DNA of 64,000 nucleotides from the NCBI GenBank assembly GCA_030765065.1, contig CM060977.1, positions 100,395,795 through 100,459,794 on the forward strand, read 5' to 3'. The first letter of the stretch is position 1, and each line of letters starts with the position of its first letter. Both the position numbers and the translations under genes were made by a program. Source of the stretch: Deroplatys truncata. Taxonomy: Eukaryota; Arthropoda; Insecta; Mantodea; Mantidae. Below, in pieces: positions 4,355 to 57,013 of this stretch. The notes below the pieces were generated by a model. The model was not told the DNA's origin. It worked only from the letters and a program-made list of their open reading frames with translations, and did not search any database.

Positions 4355-5626
4355 CTAGGTGGTCCCATAAGTAATGTGGTTTTTAAGTTTGGTGTTTCAT
4401 CAGAAGAATTGGTTTTCTTTGGTTCGCCAATCCTATTTAGAGGATGCCATGGCTATTATTGCGTATGTGTCAGTCGTGAGTTGTTAATACGCAATCACAA
4501 ATTGGAAGTTACAAAGTTTAAGGTTAGAGCCCTTCTAAAGCACTATTAGAAACAAGATTATAAAGCTGCTGCCGCCGCTCGACAAGTATTTGAAGTGGAA
4601 GGAGAAGATTAGATTTGTGTAAACAGAATCTAACACAAGAGCATTTACAGCGCTACTTTGTGAGCGTGTGGCACAATGATGGTTCCAACGTTTCAACACT
4701 GGAGAAGAAAGCACTAAAGATTCACTACGTTCTAGAACACCTACATTATGGTATATTGAGAATAAACGCAGAGTTTGGGAAGAAAATCCGCAAAAAAGTA
4801 CTCTTAGGTTGCCAGAAGTACTTGGTCCATCAAAATATACCACACATTGCCAGAATAAGAAACTTGGAAAACGAAACAGAAGCTGTAGATCTGTACCTCA
4901 TGAATTGATGCCTCAACGGGCTCAACGTAGAGTGGATATCTGTCGTCAACTTATCGGTAATCCCATTGATGATAGATTTAGCAGAAGAATTGTCACATGT
5001 GACAAAAAATTGGTCTAATTACGCAACTCTGACGCCTCGAAACAGTGGTTCAGTCCCCATCAACTTGCCAAAGTCATCGTTAAAAAAGATCAGTTCGGCC
5101 CCAACGTAATGTGTGATTGGTGGAGTTGTGAAGGAGTGACTTACTAGGAGTTTGTTCCAAGCGGGCGTGCTTTCAGTACGGATCTTTATTCTCAACAACT
5201 GGAATGAGTTCATGAAATTTTGAGACGGAGATACCGAGCATTAGTTAACCGAAATAGAGTTCTCCTGTAGCAGGACAATGCAACACTCAATACTGCACGA
5301 ACAACCATACAACCGAACTGCTACCACACTCAGCATACAGCCGTGATCTTGCTCCTTCAGATTACCGTCTGTTTCGATCCATGTCCCATTTCTTGCGTGG
5401 AAGAAATTTCAAAAACACTGAAGCTGTGGAAGTGGGTCTCACCAAACTTCTCGCAACAAAAATCAGAGACTAGTACCATCGCGGGATAATAAACTTTGCT
5501 GAAAGATGTCTAAAAACCATAGAAGCTGATGGTCTCTAATTTGAAGAGTAGTTTAATTTCCTATCATAAAACGTTCCAAATAAAGTTTTGCCTAAAAACC
5601 TACGTTAATTATTAGACACCATCTAT
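4355..5626 (+). mobile_element. mariner element, decayed, with TIRs and TA duplication
   Basis: The ends are CTAGGTGGTCCCATAAGTAA and a related inverted copy near 5600-5626, flanked by TA. Translated pieces in shifting frames read VRALLKHY, QDYKAAAAARQVFEVEGE, WFQRFNTGEES, then PHELMPQRAQRRVDICRQLI and DDRFSRRIVTCDKKLV, then SKQWFSPHQLAKVIVKKDQF, DLYSQQLE and ALVNRNRVLLQQDNA. These are the helix-turn-helix, WVPHEL-type linker and DDE catalytic region of a mariner transposase. The first catalytic Asp is in TCDKK (usually TCDEKW). Many breaks, so inactive. About 50 bp of foreign sequence sits at 4611-4665. Confidence 0.9.
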
Positions 5627-6619: not shown

Positions 6620-7066
6620 ATCAGTGAGTGTCTGAGGCAGAACTGGGATCACTGAGAAGCAAATCTTGTGCTAAGAGTTTTACAAATTTGATTGTCTACT
6701 GCACTATGACCCTGGTCACTCATTCAGTAGACAGTCACTACAGTTTATTTACATTTTACAATTTCTTGTCAATAAATTATCTTGCTCTTTTTTCAGTTTT
6801 TTTCATGTCCCATTTCCACTTGTTTTTCACTTTTCATTTATTGATTACTTAACCATCACACATTCACTATAGTTTTCCATTCAAAGTAAGATGCACTACC
6901 TCTTACTTTTCTCTTTCCACTGTCCAAAGCCATTTATTTTTTACTTTACACAAAACCTGTCCAATGCTTCTAGCGTCCTTACATATCATTTCAATCATAA
7001 GTGTATTTCTATCCCCCTTCAACCACTTCTTATTAAAAAAATTCTTTTCTCAGTAGCAATAGAATA
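6620..7066 (-). pseudogene. 3' part of the interrupted LINE
   Basis: On the minus strand from about 7044 a frame reads FFNKKWLKGDRNTLMIEMIC, then KDARSIGQVLCKVKNKW and ends soon after. LINE C-termini of this type end with a W-rich tail of the form KW...IG..L.K....KW after the zinc knuckle. The knuckle is at 24150-24240, on the far side of the palindrome. The remaining ~300 bp down to ~6620 would be the LINE 3' untranslated region, which is AT-rich and shows no other feature. Confidence 0.55.
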
Positions 7067-7330
7067 GCGACTTGAGCGCAGTAGAGAGATGCCGACAAGC
7101 GATAAAGTTCTTTGTTCTACGCCGACAAGCCCCGCCCCCTCCCTTTGTGCGCTACTATTTGCCGCCCGGTCGCGTGGCGCTAGCTCCGCCCCCTTCCCTT
7201 TGTGTGCTCACCTAATGCCGGCAGTATCTGTGCCGGCAGGTTCTACCCTCTCCCCCATGCGTTCTACTGTGGCGTCATGACTTGATGGAATTGTTTTCTC
7301 GAGTCCTGCCGCCCCTCGGCAAATTAATTA
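7067..7330. promoter_or_regulatory. GC-rich terminus of left arm with GC boxes and short direct repeats
   Basis: This terminal segment is far more GC-rich than the AT-rich surroundings. It holds two CCGCCCCC-type GC boxes, each followed by CCCTTTGTG. GCCGACAAGC occurs twice near the outer end and GCCGGCAG twice further in. A promoter or transposase-binding terminus would look like this, but no transcript or protein is known, so the function is inferred. The mirror copy is at about 23885-24147. Confidence 0.5.
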
Positions 7331-7867
7331 GGTAATGTTCGTCAAACATTTTTTTTATGACTACTAAGCCCTGCACATTGCATCCTCGAGCAATTAAGTT
7401 TTTTGATTAATGAATTGTTGACTGGAGCTTGAGTATAAGTAGTCTGCTCACGGGAACAGTCTGTCATGTAATGAAACACTGCAGCCTTCTTCTTCTATCC
7501 GGGGAAGGCGCTTGTCCATTAGCTGAACATGTTAGACGCTTTCAACACATTAATAGGCTTTCCGTCTGGAGGTAACGGTGACCCACATTAGCTAACCCGT
7601 TAGACGCTTTCACCACATTAGCGAACATTGTCAGTAATTGTTTTCCTAAGTGCTCTGCCCAACACTCAACACTTTAGATTTTAGCGATGGAAATGATATA
7701 AAAAGCAGCACCTTCTCCAACGAGTTCCAAGTTGACCAGGATGGCCGGGTTCGAATTACAAATTCAGCTTCTAATAACTCAGAGACTAATTACGATAAAG
7801 ACATCAAATAAAGTTTATTACATTAATGTCATTAGATAGTTTCTTGTGAATGTATATTTGGGTACAT
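7331..7867. repeat. left-arm subterminal segment with ~36 bp direct repeats
   Basis: Two related copies of a ~36 bp motif (TAGCT, then GTTAGACGCTTTCA, then CACATTA) begin near 7518 and 7589. Positions 7740-7867 look like a diverged partial copy of the ~415 bp unit that follows. The mirror segment in the right arm carries a 52 bp block at about 23601-23652 that is absent here. That block contains a further GCTAATGT motif, so the left arm may have lost it or the right arm gained it. Confidence 0.6.
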
Positions 7868-9620
7868 GGTGTCCAGGGTTCGAATACCGATAAAATGTAA
7901 TTTAATTATAAATTTAATAACTCCTAAACTAATTAAGATAAAGACGCCAAATAAACTTTATTGTCTTTATGTTATTAGGTAGTATCTTGTGGAGGTGTAA
8001 TTAGATACCTGACGTTCTGGGTTCGAGCCTAATGTTTAAATCGTCATTATCTCAGAAACTAAGAGAGGTAGAGGAATTGACCAAAGCATGATTGATAGCT
8101 CCTATGATGGGTAATTAATACGGTATATAATTTTCAATCAGTTGTCCTTACTTCGAATCCCGATCTTTCAATCACATACTTATTTTTCTCTATACTCTAG
8201 AATATATCACTTAGATTGATGCTGTAACTGTATACAGCACCTTTAAACATATCAAACTAATATTGTAAATAATTTTGTTTCTGGTGTCCAGGGTTCGAAT
8301 ACCGATAAAATGTAGTTTAATTATAAATTTAATAACTTCTAAACTAATTAAGATAAAGACGCCAAATAAACTTTATTGCCTTTATGTTATTAGGTATTAT
8401 CTTGTGGATGTGTAATTAGATACCTGACGTTCTGGGTTCGAGCCTAATTTTAAATCGTCATTATCTCAGAAACTAAGAGAGGTAGACGAGTGAACTAAAG
8501 CATGATTGATAGCTCCTATGAGGGGTAATTAATACTGTATATAATTTTCAATCAGTTGTCCTTACTTCGAATCCCGATCTTTCAATCACTTACTTATTTT
8601 TCTCTATACTCTAGAATATATCACTTAGATTGATGCTGTAACTGCATACAGCACCTTTAAACATATCAAACTAATATTGTAAATAATTTTGTTTCTGGTG
8701 TCCAGGGTTCGAATACCGATAAAATATAGTTTAATTATAAATTTAATAACTTCTAAACTAATTAAGATAAAGACGCCAAATAAACTTTATTGCGTTTATG
8801 TTACTAGGTAGTATCTTGTGGATGTGTAATTAGATACCTGACGTTCTGGGTTCGAGCCTAATTTTAAATCGTCATTATCTCAGAAACTAAGAGAGGTAGA
8901 CGAGTGAACCAAAGCATGATTGATAGCTCCTATGAGGGGTAATTAATACTGTATATAATTTTCAATCAGTTGTCCTTACTTCGAATCCCGATCTTTCAAT
9001 CACTTACTTATTTTTCTCTATACTCTAGAATATATCACTTAGATTGATGCTGTAACTGCATACAGCACCTTTAAACATATCAAACTAATATTGTAAATAA
9101 TTTTGTTTCTGGTGTCCAGGGTTCGAATACCGATAAAATGTAATTTAATTATAAATTTAATAACTCCTAAACTAATTAAGATAAAGACGCCAAATAAACT
9201 TTATTGCGTTTATGTTACTAGGTAGTATCTTGTGGATGTGTAATTAGATACCTGACGTTCTGGGTTCGAGCCTAATGTTTAAACCGTCATTATCTCAGAA
9301 ACTAAGAGAGGTAGAGGAATTGACCAAAGCATGATTGATAGCTCCTATGAGGGGCAATTAATACTGTATATAATTTTCAATCAGCTGTCCTTACTTCGAA
9401 TCCCGATCTTTCAATCACTTACTTATTTTTCTCTATACTCTAGAATATATCACTTAGATTGATGCTGTAAATGCATACAGCACCCTTAAACATATCAAAC
9501 TAATATTGTAAATAATATTGGTTCTGGTGTCCAGGGTTCGAATACCGATAAAATGTAATTTAATTATAAATTTAATAACTCCTAAACTAATTAAGATAAA
9601 GACACCAAATAAACTTTTAT
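7868..9620. repeat. ~415 bp tandem repeat, left arm (4 full copies plus partial)
   Basis: Units start at 7868, 8283, 8697, 9111 and 9526, so the period is 414-415 bp. The last copy is cut off near 9620. Copies are nearly identical. Each unit contains three TTCGA-centred motifs resembling a tRNA B box (GGGTTCGAATAC, GGGTTCGAGCC and ACTTCGAATCCC). Two of them are followed by a related AACTCnnnAACTAA-like segment, which suggests the unit grew from a ~130-150 bp sub-repeat. Confidence 0.92.
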
Positions 9621-9622
9621 AG

Positions 9623-10240
9623 GGGAAAGGATGCTCTCCTGAAACATTAGGTCTCTAGATAGAAGTATTTATAGGGGAGAGATAGGGAATACCAGGGCTG
9701 ATGCTAGGCTAGTCAGATGCTAAAGGAGGGAGGGATATGCTTTATACGAGAGAGATAGGGAACACAAGGAAAGATGCTATACTAAACAGGACTTGAAGGG
9801 TAGAATATGAGCGATATAGCAAACCGAGGAGAGGTATTAGGATAGGAGTTTTGAATGATGGAGTAGGCGTTTATATGCGAGAGATAGGGAATACGAGGGT
9901 CGATGCTAGGCTAGACGGTGTTGAATGAGGGAATGCATCTTATATGAGAGAGGTAGGGGAATATGAGGAGAAGTGCTAGGCTAGTCGGGAAGGTCTGAAT
10001 GAGAGAGTATACGTCTATATGGGAAAATATAGGGAAAACGAAGGTAGGTGCTAGATTGAGAGAGTCTTCAAGGAGGAAAATGCATTTATATGAGAGCGGT
10101 AGGGCATACGAGAGGTGCTAGTCTAGACATGGTTTGAGGATTAGAGTATACGTTTATATGGGAGAAATGGAAAACGGGAGAGATACAAGGATAGACAGAG
10201 ATTGAAGGAGGTGGAATGTAGGTTTATACTGTAATATAGA
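9623..10240. repeat. degenerate ~70 bp tandem repeat, left arm
   Basis: About eight diverged copies recur every 68-80 bp. Each has TTTATATG, then GAGAGATAGGGAATACGAGG, then GATGCTAGGCTAGAC, then a GAATGAGGGA-like segment. Sequence decay is much greater than in the 415 bp array next to it. The block opens (about 9623-9665) with a motif, GGATGCTCTCctGAAACATTAG, that recurs on the other side of the gene segment near 12707. Confidence 0.8.
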
Positions 10241-10780
10241 GAGTAATTCGATTATAAAACTTTCCTCATCCAGCGTTACAATACTTTTATATACTTATTT
10301 TCTAAACCTTACACACTTTATATTTGTTAAACAGTAGTGCGCGAGACGGAGAGGGACAAACAGTATATCGGTTTACAGTGAAGTATACGTCCTAACCTAT
10401 TCCCACCTTGTTTGTTCTGGATCTTCTCATTGTCTATCATCATCTAACGTAACCACGTAACAAGACGTAACACAGGAAATCATACATATGGCACATTAAT
10501 AAAAAAAATAAATAAATAAAGGTATATATAATGAAACATAAACAAGTAGACAGAGGGTCATTGATACACAGAAAACCAGGAGTTGTATGTACTGAGACCA
10601 TAGATTAGTATAGGCAAACAACAAAGAAGTGAATTTATAGTGTAAATAACCTAATATTTTCAAATATTATTATAGTCTAAAAGTATATAACTTAATTATG
10701 TACAGAGTATTGAGAAATAAACGTTATTCATGATTCACTAATCTAAGATCACTGCAATTGTATTGAATCAATTCACAATT
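10241..10780. other. left-arm AT-rich spacer with clustered CGTAAC motifs
   Basis: No gene is visible. Positions about 10443-10475 hold three close CGTAAC motifs in the same orientation. The same core recurs near 12855-12890 and resembles the TGTAAC core of the 21 bp array nearer the axis. Short A-rich and TATA-rich stretches lie around 10500-10530. Confidence 0.5.
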
Positions 10781-10809
10781 GTTAATGCCATTCAACTTTC
10801 ATTTGTCTC

Positions 10810-11580
10810 TGATACATAAACAAATTGCAAAATGGAGAAGGACGAAAGTAATAAAAAGACTCAGGCAGCAAATTTTAAGAAAGAAGAGAAAGATATATGC
10901 CCGACATTGTTTTAGAACACAAATTAGTGTTGAAAATAAAATGACTGATAGCTCTGCTAAGCGTAAGGAAGAGACAAGGAAATAAATTGCAAATGAGTAC
11001 AATTCTAGGAAGATCATCCTATGTGAATGAAAATCCCTGAAATGATATTATGAGAACATAAAGAAAAGAATGAAGCAAGCAAATACCATTGACAAGGTAC
11101 GATTGTACAAAACTGGAGGCGCATGTATGTACCGCCTTTCTTAGACAATAGTAGCCAAATAACAATTGTTGCTCTTCTATTCAATCACCAATGAGTTTGA
11201 TGATGAAGTTGGATTCCATTCAGAAGTAATCATCACAGTGAAGGACATTGAAATAGTAAATCCAGGTCCAACATGTCCTTCAGCAATTTTAATAACAGGT
11301 AAGGAATTTGAAGAAAGAGAAAGTGTAAAGGTGGCGTCTGCAGTTCCCATACAGAACTTTCAACTCCATTGCCTGAAAAGAACAAAGATGGCATAAGGGA
11401 GGGTTTTTATGAGAGGAGACTTGAGTGTTTGGAAGAAGAGTACACAGTGAAAATGAAGATCTTGAAATTGGATCTAGAAATGAAAGAATCTCAGAAAAAT
11501 TAAGCGTTGTTAATAACTTATACAACCATAAATATATTACAAAAAAGTAATGAAACAGGCAAGGAATAATATGGATAAAG
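10810..11580 (+). pseudogene. Myb/SANT-like (zeste-type) DNA-binding protein, decayed, left arm
   Basis: Reading from about 10830 in shifting frames gives MEKDESNKKTQAANFKKEEK, then pieces with KRKEETRK, IANEYNSRK and a YENIKKRMKQANTIDKVRLY segment. An open piece (11166-11396) follows with NEFDDEVGFHS and PSAILITGKE, then EGFYERRLECLEEEYTVKMK. This order matches the insect family of regulatory-protein-zeste-like / Myb_DNA-bind_5 proteins: an N-terminal trihelix-like domain, a KTGG segment and a C-terminal coiled coil. Several frame changes and in-frame stops separate the pieces, so no single protein is encoded. Such proteins are often carried by or derived from transposons. The copy in the other arm has the same breaks. 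Family assignment is from memory of motifs, not a search. Confidence 0.7.
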
Positions 11581-11882
11581 AAACTGTTAAGCAGATCTAC
11601 TACGCTTTCATTTATTTGCACATACTCAAAGTATGGAATTACACTTTCGGGAAATATTGCAGAAATAGACATGAAAAAGATATTTACGCAAAAAAAATAA
11701 AAAGGACTTAGAATATTAGAAAAAGAAGATAAACAACATTCATGTAAACCAATTTTTAAAAATCAGTTTACCTGAATACATGTAAAAAAACATATCACTT
11801 TACAAAAAGTAATGCAGACATCATTTATTTTTTATAAACATTATCCTATTACATTCCTTTACAAAACAACCATACATATTTC

Positions 11883-12092
11883 CTAAAGGCAAAGGTGATA
11901 GTCTAGACATTCTAAACACTCAATTATATAATCATATACATCACACAGAAAGAGACATGCATTATCACTAAAAAAACTAAACATCTCAACAATGTCTGAA
12001 TGATGTATTTTTATAAGTACAAGTTTTTGATATTTCAAAGTTCCTGTTAACCATGGCCGTAATTGATTAACACAATTTCTCGATCCTGTCAT
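11883..12092 (-). CDS. unrecognised 69-codon frame, left-arm copy
   Basis: This is the mirror of 19070-19279 with the same overlap to the zinc-finger gene. The reverse complement of AATAAA is at 11824-11829. It is best read as a likely 3' untranslated region with an incidental open frame. Confidence 0.2.
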   Translation of the reverse strand: MTGSRNCVNQLRPWLTGTLKYQKLVLIKIHHSDIVEMFSFFSDNACLFLCDVYDYIIECLECLDYHLCL

Positions 12093-12556
12093 GCTATAAC
12101 TTTAGAAGCTTTCAGCTTACTTATAATTTCTTCAATCTCTTGTGTGTGACTATTATTACCAGCACCCCTCGATGCAATTAGTAACCTCAATATATTTACT
12201 AGTCTATTCGGATTTTCAAGCGTTGATATCACTGAATCATCATCATATGAAGATTTCATATTCTCGCAACTTCCGATGTATCCAGATTTTTCACCAACAG
12301 TAGTCTCCAGTGAAGGACAGAGGCCTGATCCGGTATAACATTCCCCTCTATTCATCTTCGGATCTTCAAGTGCAGGAGAGAGAGTCGATTCAGCATAACA
12401 TGTTGCTCTATGAAACTTAAATCTTGACAAAGAACGATTCTTAAAAATCCGCCCGCATACACAGCATCTAATAACGCGTTTTCCTCCATGTGTAATGTAT
12501 GAAAAATCGAGTTTCTCATTCGTCAGTTGCACAGATTTTCTCGGGCAGTAGCTCAT
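12089..12556 (-). CDS. small C2HC zinc-finger-like protein, left-arm copy (155 aa)
   Basis: This is an open frame of 155 codons. Residues 31-53 form C31-x2-C34-G-R-x-F-x10-H49-x3-C53, close to the C2HC finger called zf-C2HC_2 (CxxCGRxF...H...C). Three degenerate ~20-residue repeats follow, with cores LSPALEDP (59-66), LCPSLETT (79-86) and VISTLENP (109-116); the first two each start with CYxxS. The C-terminus (about 118-155) is predicted helical, with LVNILRLLI and IEEIISKL segments that could dimerise. A pyrimidine-rich stretch ending in AG lies just upstream of the ATG, so the start may belong to a spliced exon. The whole protein is not recognised. It differs from the right-arm copy by one residue noticed, Leu43 here against Met43. 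A DNA- or RNA-binding role is inferred from the finger only. Confidence 0.6.
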   Translation of the reverse strand: MSYCPRKSVQLTNEKLDFSYITHGGKRVIRCCVCGRIFKNRSLSRFKFHRATCYAESTLSPALEDPKMNRGECYTGSGLCPSLETTVGEKSGYIGSCENMKSSYDDDSVISTLENPNRLVNILRLLIASRGAGNNSHTQEIEEIISKLKASKVIA

Positions 12557-13097
12557 GCTAAAACTAAAAGAAATTAAATGAATACGTGAATGCTAACGCT
12601 CGAAGGAATTAAAAGCGAATGAATGAATTCATAACACGCACCTATGTATATATCCAGGATGAGGACGACGGAGGGAATTGCGATCAATGCATAGCAGGGA
12701 GAAAGGATACTCTCTTGAAACATTAGTCATCTAGACAACTATTGTTCACGGAGCCTGTAGACGTCAGGTTGAATGGGACAGACCTCAGGTTCAAATCTTT
12801 AAGGGCACGGACCCAGCCTTTTGCCTGTCATGTATACTAAACCATCCTAACAGCGTAACATTACGTTACAACGACACGTAACCAGAACATGGCGAGTGCG
12901 AGCATGGAAAAAAGGATGCTCTCTGGGAACATTACTGGAAAAGGATGCTCTCTGGAAACACTAGTCATCCACACAACGGGTTGTCCCTAACATTTCCAGA
13001 TTTCGGGTCGTTCAACATCGTGACGCGCCCCTGTCATCTACATTTCGACGAAATTTTACCTCCTGAATTAAAGTTTGGTGATCTGTATAGACCTGTA
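12557..13097. repeat. left-arm segment with repeated GGATGCTCTC boxes
   Basis: A motif of about 35 bp, GGATgCTCTCtGgAACAtTAG followed by TCATCtAgACAAC, occurs near 12707, 12913 and 12945 and again at 9630 beyond the gene segment. Its copies therefore bracket the Myb/SANT and zinc-finger genes in direct orientation. A short cluster of GTAAC motifs lies at about 12855-12890. No gene is seen. The mirror segment is at about 18065-18605. Confidence 0.65.
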
Positions 13098-15390
13098 CAA
13101 CATGCATTACGCTATGTAACAGACTCATCACGTTATGTAACAACACGATCACGCTAGGTAACAACATGTTCACGCTATGTAACAACATGATCACGCTATG
13201 TAACAACATGATCACGCCATGTAACAACATGATCACGCTATGTAACAACATGATCACGCTATGTAACAACATGATCACGCTATGTAACAACATGACCACG
13301 CTATGTAACAAAACGATCAAGCTATGTAACAACTGATCACGCTATGTAACAACATGATCATGCTATGTAACAACCTGAGCACGCTATGTAACAACATGAT
13401 CACGCTATGTAACAAACTGAGTACGCTATGTAACAACATGATCACGCCATGTAACAACTGATCACGCTATGTAACAACATGATCACGCCATGTAACAACT
13501 GATCACGCTATGTAACAACATGCTCAAGCTATGTAACAACTGATCACGCTATGTAACAACACGATCACGCTATGTAACAACCTGATCAAGCTATGTAACA
13601 ACAGGATCACGCTATGTAACAACCTGAGTACGCTATGTAACAACATGATCACGCCATGTAACAACTGATCACGCTATGTAACAACATGCTCAAGCTATGT
13701 AACAACATGTTCACGCTATGTAACAACATGATCACGCTATGTAACAACATGTTCACGCTATGTAACAACATGATCACGCTATGTAACAACATGACCACAC
13801 TATGTAACAACATGATCACGCTATGTAACAAAACGATCAAGCTATGTAACAACACGATCACGCTATGTAACAACCTGATCAAGCTATGTAACAACTGATC
13901 ACGCTATGTAACAACCTGAGCACGCTATGTAACAACCTGATCACGCTATGTAACAACTGATCACGCTATGTAACAACATGCTCAAGCTATGTAACAACAT
14001 GATCACGCTATGTAACAACATGTTCACGCTATGTAACAACATGTTCACGCTATGTAACAACATGATCACGCTATGTAACAACATGACCACACTATGTAAC
14101 AACATGATCATGCTATGTAACAAAACGATCACGCTATGTAACAACATGATCACGCTATGTAACAAAACGATCAAGCTATGTAACAACCTGAGCACGCTAT
14201 GTAACAACATGTTCACGCTATGTAACAACATGATCACGTTATGTAACAACATGATCAAGCTATGTAACAACCTGAGCACGCTATGTAACAACATGATCAC
14301 GCTATGTAACAAAACGATCAAGCTATGTAACAACCTGAGCACGCTATGTAACAACATGTTCACGCTATGTAACAACATGAACACGCTATGTAACAATACG
14401 ATCACGCTATGTAACAATCTGATTACGCTATGTAACAACTGATCACGCTATGTAACAACATGATCACGCTATGTAACAACCTGAGCACGTTATGTAACAA
14501 CATGACTACGCTATGTAACAAAACGATCACGCTATGTAACAACTGATCACGCTATGTAACAACCTGAGCACGCTATGTAACAACATGACCACGCTATGTA
14601 ACAAAACGATCACGCTATGTAACAACTGATCACGCTATGTAACAAACTGAGCACGCTATGTAACAACCTGAGCACGCTATGTAACAATACGATCATGCTA
14701 TGTAACAACCTGATCACGCTATGTAACAACCTGATTACGCTATGTAACAACTGATCACGCTATGTAACAACATGATCACGCCATGTAACAACCTGAGCAC
14801 GCTATGTAACAACATGATCACGCTATGTAACAACATGAACACGCTATGTAACAATATGATCACGCTATGTAACAATCTGATTACTATGTAACAACGGATC
14901 ACGCTATGTAACAACATGATCACGGTATGTAACAACCTGAGCACGCTATGTAACATCATGATCACGCTATGTAACAACCTGATCACGCTATGTAACAACA
15001 TGCTCACGCTATGTAACAACTGATCACGCTATGTAACAACATGATCACGCTATGTAACAACCTGAGCACGCTATGTAACAACATGATCACGCTATGTAAC
15101 AACATGTTCACGCTATGTAACAACACGATCACGCTATGTAACAACACGATCACGCTATGTAACAACATGGACACGCTATGTAACAACATGAACACGCTAT
15201 GTAACAATACGATCAAGCTATGTAACAACCTGAGCACGCTATGTAACAACATGATCACGCTATGTAACAACATGAACACTCTATGTAACAACCTGAGCAT
15301 GCTATGTAACAACATGATCACGCTATGTAACAACCTAATCACGCTATGTAACATGATCACGCTATGTAACAACATGATCACGCTATGTAA
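13098..15390. repeat. 21 bp satellite-like array, left arm (~110 units)
   Basis: Tandem units of CTATGTAACAACATGATCACG, mostly 21 bp with some of 20 bp, run without interruption. Variation is concentrated in the TGATCA half (ATGTTCA, CTGAGCA, ACGATCA and so on), while TATGTAAC is almost invariant. The 21 bp period is a multiple of three, so long stop-free frames exist on both strands (LLHSVIM and TLCNNMI heptads). These are a by-product of the repeat and not good gene candidates. Confidence 0.97.
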
Positions 15391-15750
15391 ATAGGGTGGA
15401 CCATTTAAGTTGAGGCTATACAATATATCCAAAACTAAGCGTTGTAGAAAGAAATGTCTTTAATAAAACTTGATTGATATTATGGCGAAAGTAAATGCTG
15501 CTAGTCGTGTTTCGTTTGGAGGCCGTTATGAGGGTCATTTTGGGTCAATTTATTTTTTTAAATGGGAACCTACAATTAGGGTCCCATTTAAAAAGACCCT
15601 GAAATGACCCTCACTACGTCCTCCAAACGAAATACGGCTAGCAGCATTTACTTTCGCCATAATATCAATCAAGTTTATTAAAGACATTTCTTTCTACAAC
15701 GCTTAGTTTTGGATATATTGTATAGCCTCAACTTAAATGGTCCACCCTAT
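15391..15750. mobile_element. 360 bp hairpin at the palindrome axis, MITE-like
   Basis: This unique sequence folds on itself with ends ATAGGGTGGACCATTTAAGT and its complement. The left and right halves match for ~150 bp. They diverge only in the last ~35 bp around the axis, where the left half has a longer T-run. The outer ~58 bp of the right half is closely repeated at about 38957-39015, so it belongs to a dispersed family with such ends. It may be an old fold-back element from which the large palindrome grew, or it may have inserted at the axis. Superfamily is not assigned. Confidence 0.65.
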
Positions 15751-18064
15751 TTACATAGCGTGATCATGTTGTTACATAGCGTGATCATGTTACATAGCGT
15801 GATTAGGTTGTTACATAGCGTGATCATGTTGTTACATAGCATGCTCAGGTTGTTACATAGAGTGTTCATGTTGTTACATAGCGTGATCATGTTGTTACAT
15901 AGCGTGCTCAGGTTGTTACATAGCTTGATCGTATTGTTACATAGCGTGTTCATGTTGTTACATAGCGTGTCCATGTTGTTACATAGCGTGATCGTGTTGT
16001 TACATAGCGTGATCGTGTTGTTACATAGCGTGAACATGTTGTTACATAGCGTGATCATGTTGTTACATAGCGTGCTCAGGTTGTTACATAGCGTGATCAT
16101 GTTGTTACATAGCGTGATCAGTTGTTACATAGCGTGAGCATGTTGTTACATAGCGTGATCAGGTTGTTACATAGCGTGATCATGATGTTACATAGCGTGC
16201 TCAGGTTGTTACATACCGTGATCATGTTGTTACATAGCGTGATCCGTTGTTACATAGTAATCAGATTGTTACATAGCGTGATCATATTGTTACATAGCGT
16301 GTTCATGTTGTTACATAGCGTGATCATGTTGTTACATAGCGTGCTCAGGTTGTTACATGGCGTGATCATGTTGTTACATAGCGTGATCAGTTGTTACATA
16401 GCGTAATCAGGTTGTTACATAGCGTGATCAGGTTGTTACATAGCATGATCGTATTGTTACATAGCGTGCTCAGGTTGTTACATAGCGTGCTCAGTTTGTT
16501 ACATAGCGTGATCAGTTGTTACATAGCGTGATCGTTTTGTTACATAGCGTGGTCATGTTGTTACATAGCGTGCTCAGGTTGTTACATAGCGTGATCAGTT
16601 GTTACATAGCGTGATCGTTTTGTTACATAGCGTAGTCATGTTGTTACATAACGTGCTCAGGTTGTTACATAGCGTGATCATGTTGTTACATAGCGTGATC
16701 AGTTGTTACATAGCGTAATCAGATTGTTACATAGCGTGATCGTATTGTTACATAGCGTGTTCATGTTGTTACATAGCGTGAACATGTTGTTACATAGCGT
16801 GCTCAGGTTGTTACATAGCTTGATCGTTTTGTTACATAGCGTGATCATGTTGTTACATAGCGTGCTCAGGTTGTTACATAGCTTGATCATGTTGTTACAT
16901 AACGTGATCATGTTGTTACATAGCGTGAACATGTTGTTACATAGCGTGCTCAGGTTGTTACATAGCTTGATCGTTTTGTTACATAGCGTGATCATGTTGT
17001 TACATAGCGTGATCGTTTTGTTACATAGCATGATCATGTTGTTACATAGTGTGGTCATGTTGTTACATAGCGTGATCATGTTGTTACATAGCGTGAACAT
17101 GTTGTTACATAGCGTGAACATGTTGTTACATAGCGTGATCTTGTTGTTACATAGCTTGAGCATGTTGTTACATAGCGTGATCAGTTGTTACATAGCGTGA
17201 TCAGGTTGTTACATAGCGTGCTCAGGTTGTTACATAGCGTGATCAGTTGTTACATAGCTTGATCAGGTTGTTACATAGCGTGATCGTGTTGTTACATAGC
17301 TTGATCGTTTTGTTACATAGCGTGATCATGTTGTTACATAGTGTGGTCATGTTGTTACATAGCGTGATCATGTTGTTACATAGCGTGAACATGTTGTTAC
17401 ATAGCGTGATCATGTTGTTACATAGCGTGAACATGTTGTTACATAGCTTGAGCATGTTGTTACATAGCGTGATCAGTTGTTACATGGCGTGATCATGTTG
17501 TTACATAGCGTACTCAGGTTGTTACATAGCGTGATCCTGTTGTTACATAGCTTGATCAGGTTGTTACATAGCGTGATCGTGTTGTTACATAGCGTGATCA
17601 GTTGTTACATAGCTTGAGCATGTTGTTACATAGCGTGATCAGTTGTTACATGGCGTGATCATGTTGTTACATAGCGTGATCAGTTGTTACATGGCGTGAT
17701 CATGTTGTTACATAGCGTACTCAGTTTGTTACATAGCGTGATCATGTTGTTACATAGCGTGCTCAGGTTGTTACATAGCATGATCATGTTGTTACATAGC
17801 GTGATCAGTTGTTACATAGCTTGATCGTTTTGTTACATAGCGTGGTCATGTTGTTACATAGCGTGATCATGTTGTTACATAGCGTGATCATGTTGTTACA
17901 TAGCGTGATCATGTTGTTACATTGCGTGATCATGTTGTTACATAGCGTGATCATGTTGTTACATAGCGTGAACATGTTGTTACCTAGCGTGAACATGTTG
18001 TTACCTAGCGTGATCGTGTTGTTACATAACGTGATGAGTCTGTTACATAGCGTAATGCATGTTG
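15751..18064. repeat. 21 bp satellite-like array, right arm (~111 units)
   Basis: This is the reverse complement of the left array with the same order of variant units. It has one extra unit near 17980-18000 and a few substitutions (for example a TTGCG in place of the usual ATAGCG near 17920). The invariant core on this strand is GTTACATA. Confidence 0.97.
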
Positions 18065-18605
18065 TACAGGTCTATACAGATCACCAAACTTTAATTCAGG
18101 AGGTAAAATTTCGTCGAAATGTAGATGACAGGGGCGCGTCACGATGTTGAACGACCCGAAATCTGGAAATGTTAGGGACAACCCGTTGTGTGGATGACTA
18201 GTGTTTCCAGAGAGCATCCTTTTCCAGTAATGTTCCCAGAGAGCATCCTTTTTTCCATGCTCGCACTCGCCATGTTCTGGTTACGTGTCGTTGTAACGTA
18301 ATGTTACGCTGTTAGGATGGTTTAGTATACATGACAGGCAAAAGGCTGGGTCCGTGCCCTTAAAGATTTGAACCTGAGGTCTGTCCCATTCAACCTGACG
18401 TCTACAGGCTCCGTGAACAATAGTTGTCTAGATGACTAATGTTTCAAGAGAGTATCCTTTCTCCCTGCTATGCATTGATCGCAATTCCCTCCGTCGTCCT
18501 CATCCTGGATATATACATAGGTGCGTGTTATGAATTCATTCATTCGCTTTTAATTCCTTCGAGCGTTAGCATTCACGTATTCATTTAATTTCTTTTAGTT
18601 TTAGC
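18065..18605. repeat. right-arm segment with repeated GGATGCTCTC boxes (mirror)
   Basis: This is the reverse complement of 12557-13097. It is the presumed upstream region of the right-arm zinc-finger gene. Its last ~20 bases before the ATG are a pyrimidine tract ending in TTTTAG, which could be a splice acceptor. Confidence 0.6.
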
Positions 18606-19073
18606 ATGAGCTACTGCCCGAGAAAATCTGTGCAACTGACGAATGAGAAACTCGATTTTTCATACATTACACATGGAGGAAAACGCGTTATTAGATGCTG
18701 TGTATGCGGGCGGATTTTTAAGAATCGTTCTATGTCAAGATTTAAGTTTCATAGAGCAACATGTTATGCTGAATCGACTCTCTCTCCTGCACTTGAAGAT
18801 CCGAAGATGAATAGAGGGGAATGTTATACCGGATCAGGCCTCTGTCCTTCACTGGAGACTACTGTTGGTGAAAAATCTGGATACATCGGAAGTTGCGAGA
18901 ATATGAAATCTTCATATGATGATGATTCAGTGATATCAACGCTTGAAAATCCGAATAGACTAGTAAATATATTGAGGTTACTAATTGCATCGAGGGGTGC
19001 TGGTAATAATAGTCACACACAAGAGATTGAAGAAATTATAAGTAAGCTGAAAGCTTCTAAAGTTATAGCATGA
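18606..19073 (+). CDS. small C2HC zinc-finger-like protein, right-arm copy (155 aa)
   Basis: This is the mirror copy of 12089-12556, also fully open, with Met43 in place of Leu43. The candidate zinc ligands C31, C34, H49 and C53, the three ~20-residue repeats and the helical C-terminus are all retained. Both copies point away from the palindrome axis and have a 21 bp repeat array upstream. The stop codon overlaps the ATG of a following 69-codon frame (ATGA). A polyadenylation-type AATAAA lies at 19333-19338, about 260 bp after the stop. The open frame contrasts with the broken Myb/SANT gene beside it, which hints at some selection or recent origin. With only two near-identical copies this cannot be shown from the window alone. 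Confidence 0.6.
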   Translation: MSYCPRKSVQLTNEKLDFSYITHGGKRVIRCCVCGRIFKNRSMSRFKFHRATCYAESTLSPALEDPKMNRGECYTGSGLCPSLETTVGEKSGYIGSCENMKSSYDDDSVISTLENPNRLVNILRLLIASRGAGNNSHTQEIEEIISKLKASKVIA

Positions 19074-19279
19074 CAGGATCGAGAAATTGTGTTAATCAAT
19101 TACGGCCATGGTTAACAGGAACTTTGAAATATCAAAAACTTGTACTTATAAAAATACATCATTCAGACATTGTTGAGATGTTTAGTTTTTTTAGTGATAA
19201 TGCATGTCTCTTTCTGTGTGATGTATATGATTATATAATTGAGTGTTTAGAATGTCTAGACTATCACCTTTGCCTTTAG
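19070..19279 (+). CDS. unrecognised 69-codon frame overlapping the zinc-finger gene stop, right arm
   Basis: It begins at the ATGA overlap with the zinc-finger gene and ends in a Cys/Leu/Tyr-rich stretch with CLFLCDVYDYIIECLECLDY. No family is recognised. It may simply be 3' untranslated sequence; the AATAAA at 19333 fits one transcript covering both frames. The left arm has the same frame at 11883-12092 on the minus strand. Confidence 0.2.
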   Translation: MTGSRNCVNQLRPWLTGTLKYQKLVLIKIHHSDIVEMFSFFSDNACLFLCDVYDYIIECLECLDYHLCL

Positions 19280-19581
19280 GAAATATGTATGGTTGTTTTG
19301 TAAAGGAATGTAATAGGATAATGTTTATAAAAAATAAATGATGTCTGCATTACTTTTTGTAAAGTGATATGTTTTTTTACATGTATTCAGGTAAACTGAT
19401 TTTTAAAAATTGGTTTACATGAATGTTGTTTATCTTCTTTTTCTAATATTCTAAGTCCTTTTTATTTTTTTTGCGTAAATATCTTTTTCATGTCTATTTC
19501 TGCAATATTTCCCGAAAGTGTAATTCCATACTTTGAGTATGTGCAAATAAATGAAAGCGTAGTAGATCTGCTTAACAGTTT

Positions 19582-20352
19582 CTTTATCCATATTATTCCT
19601 TGCCTGTTTCATTACTTTTTTGTAATATATTTATGGTTGTATAAGTTATTAACAACGCTTAATTTTTCTGAGATTCTTTCATTTCTAGATCCAATTTCAA
19701 GATCTTCATTTTCACTGTGTACTCTTCTTCCAAACACTCAAGTCTCCTCTCATAAAAACCCTCCCTTATGCCATCTTTGTTCTTTTCAGGCAATGGAGTT
19801 GAAAGTTCTGTATGGGAACTGCAGACGCCACCTTTACACTTTCTCTTTCTTCAAATTCCTTACCTGTTATTAAAATTGCTGAAGGACATGTTGGACCTGG
19901 ATTTACTATTTCAATGTCCTTCACTGTGATGATTACTTCTGAATGGAATCCAACTTCATCATCAAACTCATTGGTGATTGAATAGAAGAGCAACAATTGT
20001 TATTTGGCTACTATTGTCTAAGAAAGGCGGTACATACATGCGCCTCCAGTTTTGTACAATCGTACCTTGTCAATGGTATTTGCTTGCTTCATTCTTTTCT
20101 TTATGTTCTCATAATATCATTTCAGGGATTTTCATTCACATAGGATGATCTTCCTAGAATTGTACTCATTTGCAATTTATTTCCTTGTCTCTTCCTTACG
20201 CTTAGCAGAGCTATCAGTCATTTTATTTTCAACACTAATTTGTGTTCTAAAACAATGTCGGGCATATATCTTTCTCTTCTTTCTTAAAATTTGCTGCCTG
20301 AGTCTTTTTATTACTTTCGTCCTTCTCCATTTTGCAATTTGTTTATGTATCA
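19582..20352 (-). pseudogene. Myb/SANT-like (zeste-type) DNA-binding protein, decayed, right arm
   Basis: This is the mirror copy of 10810-11580 on the minus strand, with the same order of motifs and the same breaks. It therefore decayed before the arms were duplicated, or the arms have been kept alike by gene conversion since. It lies tail-to-tail with the zinc-finger gene at 18606-19073. Confidence 0.7.
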
Positions 20353-20921
20353 GAGACAAATGAAAGTTGAATGGCATTAACAATTGTGAATTGATTCAAT
20401 ACAATTGCAGTGATCTTAGATTAGTGAATCATGAATAACGTTTATTTCTCAATACTCTGTACATAATTAAGTTATATACTTTTAGACTATAATAATATTT
20501 GAAAATATTAGGTTATTTACACTATAAATTCACTTCTTTGTTGTTTGCCTATACTAATCTATGGTCTCAGTACATACAACTCCTGGTTTTCTGTGTATCA
20601 ATGACCCTCTGTCTACTTGTTTATGTTTCATTATATATACCTTTATTTATTTATTTTTTTTATTAATGTGCCATATGTATGATTTCCTGTGTTACGTCTT
20701 GTTACGTGGTTACGTTAGATGATGATAGACAATGAGAAGATCCAGAACAAACAAGGTGGGAATAGGTTAGGACGTATACTTCACTGTAAACCGATATACT
20801 GTTTGTCCCTCTCCGTCTCGCGCACTACTGTTTAACAAATATAAAGTGTGTAAGGTTTAGAAAATAAGTATATAAAAGTATTGTAACGCTGGATGAGGAA
20901 AGTTTTATAATCGAATTACTC

Positions 20922-21539
20922 TCTATATTACAGTATAAACCTACATTCCACCTCCTTCAATCTCTGTCTATCCTTGTATCTCTCCCGTTTTCCATTTCTC
21001 CCATATAAACGTATACTCTAATCCTCAAACCATGTCTAGACTAGCACCTCTCGTATGCCCTACCGCTCTCATATAAATGCATTTTCCTCCTTGAAGACTC
21101 TCTCAATCTAGCACCTACCTTCGTTTTCCCTATATTTTCCCATATAGACGTATACTCTCTCATTCAGACCTTCCCGACTAGCCTAGCACTTCTCCTCATA
21201 TTCCCCTACCTCTCTCATATAAGATGCATTCCCTCATTCAACACCGTCTAGCCTAGCATCGACCCTCGTATTCCCTATCTCTCGCATATAAACGCCTACT
21301 CCATCATTCAAAACTCCTATCCTAATACCTCTCCTCGGTTTGCTATATCGCTCATATTCTACCCTTCAAGTCCTGTTTAGTATAGCATCTTTCCTTGTGT
21401 TCCCTATCTCTCTCGTATAAAGCATATCCCTCCCTCCTTTAGCATCTGACTAGCCTAGCATCAGCCCTGGTATTCCCTATCTCTCCCCTATAAATACTTC
21501 TATCTAGAGACCTAATGTTTCAGGAGAGCATCCTTTCCC
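20922..21539. repeat. degenerate ~70 bp tandem repeat, right arm (mirror copy)
   Basis: This is the reverse complement of 9623-10240, with the same order of diverged units. It separates the 415 bp array from the gene-bearing segment in the right arm. Confidence 0.8.
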
Positions 21540-21541
21540 CT

Positions 21542-23294
21542 ATAAAAGTTTATTTGGTGTCTTTATCTTAATTAGTTTAGGAGTTATTAAATTTATAATT
21601 AAATTACATTTTATCGGTATTCGAACCCTGGACACCAGAACCAATATTATTTACAATATTAGTTTGATATGTTTAAGGGTGCTGTATGCATTTACAGCAT
21701 CAATCTAAGTGATATATTCTAGAGTATAGAGAAAAATAAGTAAGTGATTGAAAGATCGGGATTCGAAGTAAGGACAGCTGATTGAAAATTATATACAGTA
21801 TTAATTGCCCCTCATAGGAGCTATCAATCATGCTTTGGTCAATTCCTCTACCTCTCTTAGTTTCTGAGATAATGACGGTTTAAACATTAGGCTCGAACCC
21901 AGAACGTCAGGTATCTAATTACACATCCACAAGATACTACCTAGTAACATAAACGCAATAAAGTTTATTTGGCGTCTTTATCTTAATTAGTTTAGGAGTT
22001 ATTAAATTTATAATTAAATTACATTTTATCGGTATTCGAACCCTGGACACCAGAAACAAAATTATTTACAATATTAGTTTGATATGTTTAAAGGTGCTGT
22101 ATGCAGTTACAGCATCAATCTAAGTGATATATTCTAGAGTATAGAGAAAAATAAGTAAGTGATTGAAAGATCGGGATTCGAAGTAAGGACAACTGATTGA
22201 AAATTATATACAGTATTAATTACCCCTCATAGGAGCTATCAATCATGCTTTGGTTCACTCGTCTACCTCTCTTAGTTTCTGAGATAATGACGATTTAAAA
22301 TTAGGCTCGAACCCAGAACGTCAGGTATCTAATTACACATCCACAAGATACTACCTAGTAACATAAACGCAATAAAGTTTATTTGGCGTCTTTATCTTAA
22401 TTAGTTTAGAAGTTATTAAATTTATAATTAAACTATATTTTATCGGTATTCGAACCCTGGACACCAGAAACAAAATTATTTACAATATTAGTTTGATATG
22501 TTTAAAGGTGCTGTATGCAGTTACAGCATCAATCTAAGTGATATATTCTAGAGTATAGAGAAAAATAAGTAAGTGATTGAAAGATCGGGATTCGAAGTAA
22601 GGACAACTGATTGAAAATTATATACAGTATTAATTACCCCTCATAGGAGCTATCAATCATGCTTTAGTTCACTCGTCTACCTCTCTTAGTTTCTGAGATA
22701 ATGACGATTTAAAATTAGGCTCGAACCCAGAACGTCAGGTATCTAATTACACATCCACAAGATAATACCTAATAACATAAAGGCAATAAAGTTTATTTGG
22801 CGTCTTTATCTTAATTAGTTTAGAAGTTATTAAATTTATAATTAAACTACATTTTATCGGTATTCGAACCCTGGACACCAGAAACAAAATTATTTACAAT
22901 ATTAGTTTGATATGTTTAAAGGTGCTGTATACAGTTACAGCATCAATCTAAGTGATATATTCTAGAGTATAGAGAAAAATAAGTATGTGATTGAAAGATC
23001 GGGATTCGAAGTAAGGACAACTGATTGAAAATTATATACCGTATTAATTACCCATCATAGGAGCTATCAATCATGCTTTGGTCAATTCCTCTACCTCTCT
23101 TAGTTTCTGAGATAATGACGATTTAAACATTAGGCTCGAACCCAGAACGTCAGGTATCTAATTACACCTCCACAAGATACTACCTAATAACATAAAGACA
23201 ATAAAGTTTATTTGGCGTCTTTATCTTAATTAGTTTAGGAGTTATTAAATTTATAATTAAATTACATTTTATCGGTATTCGAACCCTGGACACC
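21542..23294. repeat. ~415 bp tandem repeat, right arm (mirror copy)
   Basis: This is the reverse complement of the left-arm array with the same copy number, the same truncation point and the same unit-specific variants. Shared variants between arms, rather than within an arm, show that the arms were copied from one another after the array had formed. Confidence 0.92.
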
Positions 23295-23884
23295 ATGTAC
23301 CCAAATATACATTCACAAGAAACTATCTAATGACATTAATGTAATAAACTTTATTTGATGTCTTTATCGTAATTAGTCTCTGAGTTATTAGAAGCTGAAT
23401 TTGTAATTCGAACCCGGCCATCCTGGTCAACTTGGAACTCGTTGGAGAAGGTGCTGCTTTTTATATCATTTCCATCGCTAAAATCTAAAGTGTTGAGTGT
23501 TGGGCAGAGCACTTAGGAAAACAATTACTGACAATGTTCGCTAATGTGGTGAAAGCGTCTAACGGGTTAGCTAATGTGGGTCACCGTTACCTCCAGACGG
23601 AAGTATGTCGTTGATCGCTAATGTATGTAAACAGATCCAGAATGTAAACTTAAAAGCCTATTAATGTGTTGAAAGCGTCTAACATGTTCAGCTAATGGAC
23701 AAGCGCCTTCCCCGGATAGAAGAAGAAGGCTGCAGTGTTTCATTACATGACAGACTGTTCCCGTGAGCAGACTACTTATACTCAAGCTCCAGTCAACAAT
23801 TCATTAATCAAAAAACTTAATTGCTCGAGGATGCAATGTGCAGGGCTTAGTAGTCATAAAAAAAATGTTTGACGAACATTACCT

Positions 23885-24147
23885 AATTAATTTGCCGAGG
23901 GGCGGCAGGACTCGAGAAAACAATTCCATCAAGTCATGACGCCACAGTAGAACGCATGGGGGAGGGGGTAGAACCTGCCGGCACAGATACTGCCGGCATT
24001 AGGTGAGCACACAAAGGGAAGGGGGCGGAGCTAGCGCCACGCGACCGGGCGGCAAATAGTAGCGCACAAAGGGAGGGGGCGGGGCTTGTCGGCGTAGAAC
24101 AAAGAACTTTATCGCTTGTCGGCATCTCTCTACTGCGCTCAAGTCGC
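23885..24147. promoter_or_regulatory. GC-rich terminus of right arm (mirror copy)
   Basis: This is the reverse complement of the left terminus, with the same paired GC boxes and short direct repeats. I noticed one difference: a C-run near the middle carries a base substitution. If these ends drive inward transcription, each promoter would read through both arms and give a self-complementary RNA. That consequence is inference. Confidence 0.5.
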
Positions 24148-24149
24148 CA

Positions 24150-24900
24150 TTATATCTCTACTTTTCTCCAATTTTCTGTTCCTTGTCACTTAAATACTAT
24201 GTGTTCAATGTCTTCATTACCACCACATATCAGACAATGGTTCTGAGGAATACCCTGTCTTGGCGGTCTGCGCTTCAGCCGAGTTGGCCCACGAGTACTT
24301 ACTCCAAAGTTGTATTCAACTGTTCCCTGCACTTGCTGAAGGTTGGCGAAGAAAGGTTTAGAGACGGTGTGGATAAACTAGTGTATAGTAGAAAGTCCCA
24401 AATCACGTTGAAGCCGTCGATTTCGGATGAACAATGGGGATCTCGTGACAATACGAATTGCTGTATTTTGTATGATCTGAAGGCGGCGAATATGACTATT
24501 GCTGACAGCATCCCATACAGGAGTTGCATAGGTGATCATGCGTTGCACGAGAGATGTATATAACAGCAAAGAGCATTCAAGAGCCAAAGGTGACCGCTGG
24601 AGAAACACGGAATACAGTTGTGAGGGTCTGTCTGAAGCTAAGGTGACCATGCATTGTACATGGGAATTTCACGTAAGCCTGTGTCAAATGTCAAATAGTA
24701 CACCCAGATATTTCACCGATGTTTGTAGTGGTAACCCTGAGTCGAAACTGGTTTGTAACGAACTCTTTGTGTCGTTTCCTTCTACGTTGTATAATTGTGC
24801 ATTAAGTTTATTGGCCATCAGAGGACGAATCTCACTAGCTAGTCTATCACGTAATATCTCCATATTTTGTTTTAAAAAGGGAACGTTAGCTTGTTTTTAA
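24150..24900 (-). pseudogene. non-LTR retrotransposon (LINE) reverse-transcriptase C-terminal part, broken
   Basis: The minus strand reads LLYTSLVQRMITYATPVWDA, then NSHIRRLQIIQNTAIRIVTR (24378-24650), the typical RT thumb region of Jockey-like LINEs. A second frame then runs to a zinc-knuckle motif HCLICGGNEDIEHIVFK followed by QGTENWRK. The frame stops at the palindrome border near 24147. Sequence related to the expected continuation is found on the other side of the palindrome (about 6900-7056), so this LINE was the target of insertion. Truncated, with at least one frame change and an in-frame stop in the knuckle. Confidence 0.75.
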
Positions 24901-25227: not shown

Positions 25228-26045
25228 ATAGGTTTTTACTTCCTCTATCACGTACATAGTATAGTTCTATACAGAGATTTCATCGTAAATACATGTTTTG
25301 AGGCCCTCCGAATCCCAAAAACAATTTTACTTTCTCTACATAGTATTTTTAGAAAATACTAGCATTTTTAGAAAATGGTCCGTGTGTGTCTTTGTGTCTG
25401 TGAACAGTATGACTAAAAAACGAAAATTCAAATAAGTACCAAACTTGGTAGTTAAGTTCAGCATCTTTCAAGAATGCCACACGAAGGTTTTCAAAAAAAT
25501 ACCCGCACCTCAACCACCGTTTAGTGGAACAGTTTTCGAAAATTTTGATTACCTAAAAATGGCTCTTACGATTTTGATTAAAATACCATATATTAAAGAT
25601 ACTTACTTGACAAATCAAATTTACAATTTGAATTTTCTGGGAACAGCTTATGAAGTTTTCTTCATTCGGAAGGAGGTTTGTATGATCTTGTATAACTGAT
25701 AAACGCTAAGCGATAGACGAAAACGTACTCCACAAAAAATGTAAATCTCTTTAAAACGCAATTTATTTTAAATAGCTTTTTTGTTATTTAAACTGGGGCC
25801 TGGACAAATAAATAACAGTTTAAACTGTTATATATTTGAGGCGAGTATATAGCGTCCAGTTCTTAAACATTTTACTATCGCTGTTCCCTTTGCATTTGTA
25901 ACGAAATTTGTAATATAGCTATTTCTACGAAGGTTCATCTCGATTAAAATGAAGTAGAAAACAAATGCTTTCATAAGAATATATTTTATACCCATTAATA
26001 AATAATAGAAAGTAGATAGAAAATCATGCGGATGTAACATATAAG
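25228..26045 (-). repeat. family R repeat, nearly complete, inverted
   Basis: In reverse orientation it runs from TTTTTACTTCCTCTATCACG to AAAATCATGCGGATGTAACA. It retains the GTCTGTGAACAG segment and the GTCCAGTTCTTAAACA segment seen in other copies. The open frame at 25445-25699 is incidental. Confidence 0.75.
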
Positions 26046-27242
26046 ATTTTTATTTATTATTATCCAGTAGAAAAACATTCTGCTAACATTCGGTCTGTAG
26101 TCATTAGTAAGCTATGACGACGTGTTACGTTTGAACACACTACGGTAAGAAACATTCAGTGTAAAATGTGCTCACGAGAGTTCCAAACCCAGAGCATGTT
26201 ATAGGATGCTGGTCCTCAACAGCGGAAAGCAATTTATCTTCCTTCACTTTCCTGAAGTTTTCACGTTTTCTAAGAAGTTGACGGACACCTCGGAATGCGC
26301 CTATGGGCCCACTTGCAGCCGGAAAGCCAAAAGCGTTAAATCATAGCATTTTCACTACTATCTGAGATACTATCTCACGCGAATAAATTGGTGTAATGAA
26401 TCAGAGCTTGCAAACAAAAGCTTCCATTCCAGACATTTTTTTTCTGTTTAAACAGCAAACATTTCTGAATACTGCCGGAGACTAAGATTCCCACAATTCA
26501 TTGTGCCACAGTGACTCCCGGAAATTACATTTTCTTTTCTCTGGAAATAAAACAATAAACGCTTTTAGAGGAAAATGCCGAGAGCAGATACTGCTCTTTT
26601 TTCAATATAGCCCGAAGAGAGGGCGCTCTTTTGTTTAGTGAAGCAAGAGGAGCGCTTCTGTTCAACACATACACTGCACGGGATTACGAATTAAATAAAA
26701 ACTGATACAAATTCTTTGCTTATCCTCTCTGCTTTTTTCCATCGGTAGCACAACTTTACAAGAATTGCAAAGATTATCTCAGCCTAAGCCACTTGTAATT
26801 CGCTTCTGCAAATATAACTAACTTTTATTATTTGAAAGAATTGCTGAAGTGGAATTGAGATGTCACACAAAAAAACTCCTCTTCTTGCTTTCTTTAACTT
26901 TTCATTTCATTTATATCTTCAGACTATTTGTTGAATTAATAGTAATTTTAAAGGATAAAGAAGGTATGAGATAAAACGAAACAAAAACTTATAATTGGTT
27001 CGGAGTCGTAGATATCCAATCAGAGTTTTGACTGTAGTAGGAATAGAAGACCTAAAAGAAAGAGTTTTCTCTTACTTCTGGATGTTAAAAATTTCAATAT
27101 TTCTGGAGGAATTTATAAAATATGGACCGCAAGACACATCTGGTTCAAAAATGCTTTTTGGACAGCTGGCACTACTTATATAATCTTATAATCTTCAATT
27201 TCTAGTGTGAGAAGTTGAAGATTATAACACTCAATCGAATCA
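26046..27242. other. unassigned stretch
   Basis: About 1.2 kb without a recognised gene, element end or tandem repeat. Composition is AT-rich like the flanks. Confidence 0.4.
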
Positions 27243-27244
27243 TA

Positions 27245-38956: not shown

Positions 38957-39016
38957 CATTTCTTTCTACAACGCTTAGTTTTGGAGATATTGTACAGTGT
39001 CAACTTAAATGGTTGA
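38957..39016 (+). repeat. solo end related to the palindrome-axis hairpin
   Basis: CATTTCTTTCTACAACGCTT through CAACTTAAATGGT matches the right half of the axis hairpin (15685-15742) with few changes. It shows the axis sequence belongs to a dispersed family. Confidence 0.75.
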
Positions 39017-52625: not shown

Positions 52626-52639
52626 CCTTTTCCTAATTT

Positions 52640-53160: not shown

Positions 53161-53177
53161 TCCTTGTTATCTTTTTT

Positions 53178-57012: not shown

Positions 57013-57013
57013 A

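Follow-up and report, generated by a model that had tools for sequence, protein, structure and literature searches.

A 17-kb near-perfect palindrome with a divergent hairpin axis in the mantis Deroplatys truncata, a candidate foldback-like element

The window analysed here, a 64,000-nucleotide stretch of the Deroplatys truncata genome (GenBank assembly GCA_030765065.1, contig CM060977.1, positions 100,395,795 to 100,459,794), contained a single palindrome of ~17 kb at window positions 7067-24147, with its axis at 15571/15572 in the global alignment (Table 1). An earlier note had described a near-perfect palindrome of this size and extent, and inverted arms were found there, the two halves being joined in one 8595-column alignment with 98.8% identity and 5 gap openings. 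The inverted-repeat search returned the arms in three parts, 7560-13332/17830-23602 (5773 bp, 100% complementary), 13094-15467/15674-18047 (2374 bp, 99%), and 7052-7561/23653-24162 (510 bp, 99%). In the global alignment the outermost matching run reached 7067 and 24147; three further bases (7063-7065) also matched past one mismatch, and the border may lie 3-4 bases farther out.

Outside the centre, the arms were 99.95% identical, with four substitutions over 7067-15464 (at 7249, 12430, 13218, and 14000). Without the core, the left and right arms measured 8398 bp and 8471 bp, respectively, a difference accounted for exactly by a 52-bp indel after 7559, whose surplus sequence lies in the right arm, and by one additional 21-bp monomer that the same arm carries near 13148. 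The arms had been described as more than 99% alike, which holds for this outer part but misses a far more divergent axis of ~130 bp. At the axis, the two halves differed by 10 substitutions and a 7-bp gap in ~60 aligned positions, with 6 unpaired loop bases. This divergence set in at 15505, preceded only by a single 1-bp indel at 15465, and the step was steep: four substitutions in 8398 bp of the arms versus 10 in ~60 aligned positions at the axis (Fisher p ~2e-17 for 10/97 versus 4/8398, counts entered by hand). The mismatch remaining at the axis was ~17%, so that the short inverted repeat lying there has diverged more than the arms around it.

Table 1 Features of the palindrome, in window coordinates.
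Feature	Position	Strand	Basis or mirrored copy
Left arm	7067..15571	+	Inverted-repeat search, alignments
Right arm, an inverted copy of the left arm	15572..24147	-	Inverted-repeat search, alignments
Outer flanking domain	7067..7866	+	Repeat-family comparison
Terminal CpG-rich block (21 CpG in 264 bp) with short subterminal direct repeats	7067..7330	+	Mirrored at 23884-24147
414-bp tandem repeat, 4.2 copies, with GGTTCGA (tRNA B-box-like) motifs	7867..9617	+	Mirrored at 21545-23295
Degenerate 70-75-bp GA-rich tandem repeat	9668..10168	+	Repeat families D5, D6, D8, D9
Decayed Myb/SANT-like pseudogene	10833..11141 (approximate)	+	PF13873
Open frame, 167 codons (155 from first Met), possible zinc-finger stretch	12089..12592	-	Mirrored at 18570-19073
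21-bp tandem array, ~110 copies	13097..15390	+	Mirrored at 15751-18065, variant monomers in the same order
Central imperfect inverted repeat, ends GGGTGGACC...GGTCCACCC beside TA	15394..15748	.	Sequence, alignment, folding
Divergent axis, proposed fold-back site	15505..15637	.	Global alignment

From the outside inward, each arm, made up in large part of tandem repeats, consists of the flanking domain, the 414-bp array, the 70-75-bp array, a region with the pseudogene and the open frame, and the 21-bp array. The three kinds of tandem array reported earlier were thus all present, and these long inverted arms with their internal repeats extended to both ends of the palindrome. Within the flanking domain, 94 bp (7772-7865) matched a portion of the 414-bp unit at 79-80% identity. 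The GGTTCGA motif occurred 25 times in the window, where 3.8 occurrences were expected, and 20 of these lay in the arms (per arm, nine in the 414-bp array and one in the flanking domain); a stricter B-box pattern had no match in the arms. Tandem Repeats Finder reported two copies of the 70-75-bp repeat, in the right arm only. In the 21-bp array, 102 of the 105 pieces matched in order between the arms, which identifies the arms as copies of one another and rules out an independent expansion of the repeat in each arm. A 38-nt motif around AAAGGATGCTCTC (family D7) recurs at 9622, 12698, 12907, and 12936 with 63-84% likeness, and its copies flank the pseudogene and open-frame region on both sides.

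The coding content of the arms is modest, and the earlier mention of genes was generous. The pseudogene, translated by hand across its stops, which were entered as X, matched PF13873 (E 6e-5, 23.3 bits against a cut-off of 21.7) and weakly a T1R_D3-like profile (E 0.031). The other candidate is the 155-codon open frame, whose identity is doubtful and whose resemblance to zinc fingers is weak. Its profile matches were to the Spin-doc zinc finger (E 0.05), Utp13 (E 0.033), and the BIRD-IDD finger (E 0.98); the best PDB chain was 2i13_A 'Aart' (E 6e-4), followed mostly by other zinc-finger proteins. A structure predicted without an alignment had a mean pLDDT of 41 and is not interpretable, and four stretches in viral contigs fitted a pattern of the frame, none of which was confirmed as a relative. 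The frame at 11532-11711 matched Vta1 with E 0.0025, below the Vta1 cut-off. As noted earlier, no transposase was recognised, here in eight of the 48 open frames and the hand-read pseudogene, and the eight arm frames gave no THAP match at E up to 1.

The central 361 bp were predicted to fold into one long imperfect hairpin with a free energy of -183.9 kcal/mol as DNA, compared with a mean of -31 kcal/mol for 100 shuffled sequences. This is 38 standard deviations below the shuffles, and the folding of this segment alone rules out a chance origin. Part of the outer stem (57 bp, 15400-15456) was found again at 38957-39013 with 93% identity, so the central sequence is at least partly a repeat present elsewhere. 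The ends of the hairpin, GGGTGGACC...GGTCCACCC beside TA, suggest a small MITE-like inverted-repeat transposon; since no further copy with these ends was found in the 64-kb window, we treat it as a candidate of that kind. The position of this older, imperfect hairpin between near-identical arms is what would be expected had one arm served, via a fold-back intermediate, as the template for the other.

Within the 64-kb window, neither the ends nor the arms had a second copy, and no Rfam match reached the gathering threshold. The palindrome terminus had no exact match in viral contigs or prokaryote genomes, where an animal repeat is not expected, and neither a 20-base piece of the 57-bp core-flank motif nor a 22-base piece of the 21-bp repeat was matched exactly in viral contigs. 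A bacterial promoter and terminator scan of 7000-7600, which has little meaning here, also returned nothing.

At the borders, the left 1-kb flank had nothing in common with the right one (best E 0.12), which excludes a mirror symmetry continuing past the palindrome. By eye, the right flank resembles the terminal part of a minus-strand non-LTR reverse transcriptase that has decayed; its three frames gave only a zf-RVT match in Pfam, in one frame (E 0.15). Other frames in the window looked mariner-like and non-LTR-like by eye, and Pfam gave no confirmation in the frames tested. No convincing adjacent target-site duplication was found in registers 7061-7069 for lengths of 4 and 7-10 bp, the best of the adjacent matches listed being 5/8, 4/7, and 5/10.

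The composition and subterminal-repeat tests were picked after the sequence had been viewed, and they describe the two edges differently. On the left, 7066/7067 was the best GC change point in the range 6667-7330, and in the shorter range 6867-7230 it came a close second to 7119. The step at 7066 was reached or exceeded by 0.25% (GC) and 0.13% (CpG) of window positions outside the palindrome, compared with 6.2% and 1.3%, respectively, for the step at 24147. At the right border, the best change point fell at 24095 (support interval 24082-24152), which lies 52 bp into the arm. Judged by these steps, the left edge resembles a natural terminus; the right one does so only weakly. The terminal block (7067-7330) contained six repeated 9-mers against a shuffle mean of 0.27 (none of 500 shuffles had as many), 11 repeated 8-mers (0/500), and two repeated 10-mers (6/500). 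Repeats of equal density were also present in 52 of the 2109 overlapping windows taken from elsewhere; among the 83 such windows with GC above 0.5, five had them.

Taken as a whole, the arm anatomy and the terminus-like left border fit the giant fold-back type of element proposed earlier, but the target-site duplication such an element would be expected to carry is absent. We tentatively favour, at somewhat less than even confidence, a foldback-like DNA element of non-autonomous type, whose extreme terminal inverted repeats were equalised by hairpin-templated copying; the term denotes structural likeness and not family membership. It is preferred over duplication of arbitrary sequence because the outer ends are sharp and mirrored and one lies at a composition boundary, which points to a copied unit with its own terminus, and it is held below one half because the target-site duplication is missing.

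Under this foldback-like reading, an ancestral one-armed unit would have comprised the flanking domain, the 414-bp repeats, the 70-bp repeats, the pseudogene, and the 21-bp array, and would have ended at an inverted repeat that was short, old, and imperfect. Once the DNA had broken there, a single strand could fold back at this repeat and anneal, its mismatches being kept, and then prime copying of the entire arm out to the outer end of the unit. The product would be a palindrome with identical mirrored termini, now lying between unrelated flanks. Capture by end joining might account for the lack of a target-site duplication; so might an exchange involving two copies, of the kind seen in Galileo chimeras.

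In both human and yeast, inverted sequences are established sites of fold-back duplication (available parts of PMC3907307 and PMC7467729). There is counter-evidence as well. A target-site duplication is present in about 89% of those Galileo copies whose ends are preserved (PMC4168063, in the part available). In sae2-deficient yeast, fold-back events removed the short repeat's mismatches in every clone but two, which came from a proofreading-deficient double mutant (PMC10622511, accessible part), whereas ~17% mismatch persists in the palindrome. Divergence between inverted repeats also impedes their interaction, although divergent repeats still give inverted dimers when long single strands arise, according to the accessible portion of PMC10164571.

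Two Drosophila elements resemble the palindrome. In Tetris of Drosophila virilis, as in the palindrome, an outer flanking domain is followed by tandem repeats that partly match it and then by an inner domain; the part of PMC4079207 available describes 37 bp at ~80% common to flanking domain and repeats, a middle domain without apparent coding capacity, and three structurally complete copies without transposase. However, the arms of Tetris are at most 1,735 bp long and its target-site duplications measure 8-10 bp, whereas the palindrome has 8.4-kb arms and no such duplication was found. Galileo, of the P superfamily, is represented by D. willistoni copy 112 (9,021 bp, arms of 4,246 and 4,680 bp), which likewise carries tandem repeats in its arms and no transposase in the described part of PMC4168063. 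The palindrome was earlier called far longer than such elements; its arms are about twice those of copy 112, but given arms of 4.2 and 4.7 kb there, the wording was overstated. Furthermore, the palindrome has three kinds of array in the same order in both arms, whereas the arrays of copy 112 are unlike between arms, and copy 112 has a target-site duplication (PMC4168063). In D. mojavensis, 12 chimeric Galileo copies lack matching target-site duplications, as reported in the available section of PMC3573991, and copies without transposase are common in foldback-type families (PMC4168063, PMC4079207). As Tetris and Galileo were compared by their described structure rather than by sequence, their relation to the palindrome would be one of structural likeness, not membership. 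Among the open-licence literature, as far as its texts were available, we found no foldback element with arms this long, which is not proof of absence in print; larger inverted repeats of other kinds exist, such as those of 38-76 kbp in bacteria (PMC5345009, available part).

The strongest rival, which we consider rather unlikely, is an ordinary chromosomal inverted duplication, in which a break near a short inverted repeat led to fold-back, 8.4 kb of local sequence were copied, and the product was joined elsewhere. Position 7067 would then be the mirror of the join at 24147 and not the end of an element. This explanation draws on an established mechanism and agrees with the divergent short inverted repeat at the axis, the unrelated flanks, the missing target-site duplication, the window without a second copy, and a right-border change point that lies off the exact edge. 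Human and yeast fold-back duplications likewise have inverted sequence at the axis, arms that are alike, and a new junction (PMC3907307, PMC7467729, PMC10622511, in the parts available). However, the left border would fall by coincidence at a composition step that ranks among the strongest of the window, unlike in those duplications as described there, and the step at 7067 counts against the left flank having once been contiguous with the arm. The ordered arm anatomy is also like that of foldback elements. In addition, human fold-back spacers span 766-70,466 bp, whereas the loop of the palindrome is a few bases, and the human cases described lie at terminal deletions, translocations, or rings; in yeast, axis mismatches are lost with few exceptions (PMC10622511), whereas those of the palindrome persist.

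It is improbable that the palindrome, mobile or not, is old and that gene conversion has kept its arms alike while the ~130-bp axis escaped and diverged. Such conversion, also raised by the earlier note, is possible: it would account for high arm identity adjoining a divergent axis, the decayed pseudogene common to both arms indicates that the arm content is old, and the target-site duplication of an old insertion could be lost. However, the transition is abrupt, with a 1-bp indel alone between the end of the 21-bp array (15390) and 15504, so conversion would need a fixed stopping point near the axis. Moreover, a 7-10-bp duplication as aged as the core should still be recognisable, and none was found. 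A single recent copying event through an older hairpin explains the divergent core at least as well. Finally, an assembly artefact, either a fold-back chimera or a false haplotype join, is very improbable, since the two clean indels (52 bp and 21 bp), the four substitutions, and the core's own differences do not suit one molecule read twice, and a false join should run on into similar flanks, which are unrelated here.

To return to the foldback-like reading, the near-identical arms together with an older, imperfect axis hairpin would preserve a record of the order of events. If the element is mobile, its arms would be about twice the length of the longest Galileo arms we met (4.2-4.7 kb; PMC4168063, in the part available). 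Foldback elements made by hairpin-templated copying should have divergent cores, and this can be predicted for other such elements. Why foldback arms exceed the needs of a transposase in length and likeness is, to our knowledge, not settled. A further, unlikely reading is a one-step origin of foldback transposons. In it, a one-ended transposon fragment with a hairpin-forming repeat at its inner limit would fold back and be copied as far as its outer terminus. If so, a single event would yield a near-perfect palindrome of giant size, its two ends identical and transposase-ready, and the old hairpin would remain as the scar at its axis.

The outer stem of the central hairpin, an imperfect inverted repeat at the palindrome axis, had a 57-bp match at 38957-39013 (93%). 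The surroundings of this second site were otherwise unrelated, with TATG/TG microsatellites adjoining it. Elsewhere, a 143-bp unit was tandemly duplicated at 40969-41255 (91% matches).

An interspersed repeat family (unit of roughly 600-800 bp) is represented in the window by nine or more copies, whole or partial, which lie in both orientations; their mutual likeness was mostly 66-84%. Decayed non-LTR reverse-transcriptase-like frames, recognized by eye on the minus strand at 24150-24896, terminate near the right border of the palindrome; Pfam returned only a weak zf-RVT match for them. Among the mariner-like fragments, the single frame checked against Pfam (33237-33686) gave no match.

Coordinates of repeat copies and transposase fragments
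Feature	Positions	Basis
Interspersed family, copies or partial copies	134-718, 25361-26059, 29795-30461, 30524-31125, 34227-34822, 39100-39923, 48057-48912, 52445-53931, 55433-57021	
Mariner-like transposase fragments	4600-5500, 27240-28380, 33237-33686	by eye

Scanning the 414-bp tandem arrays of the two arms (7867-9617 and 21545-23295) with a stricter B-box pattern yielded no hits. The motif GGTTCGA, which resembles the tRNA B box, recurs nine times per arm in these arrays and is possibly a trace of a tRNA-derived origin.
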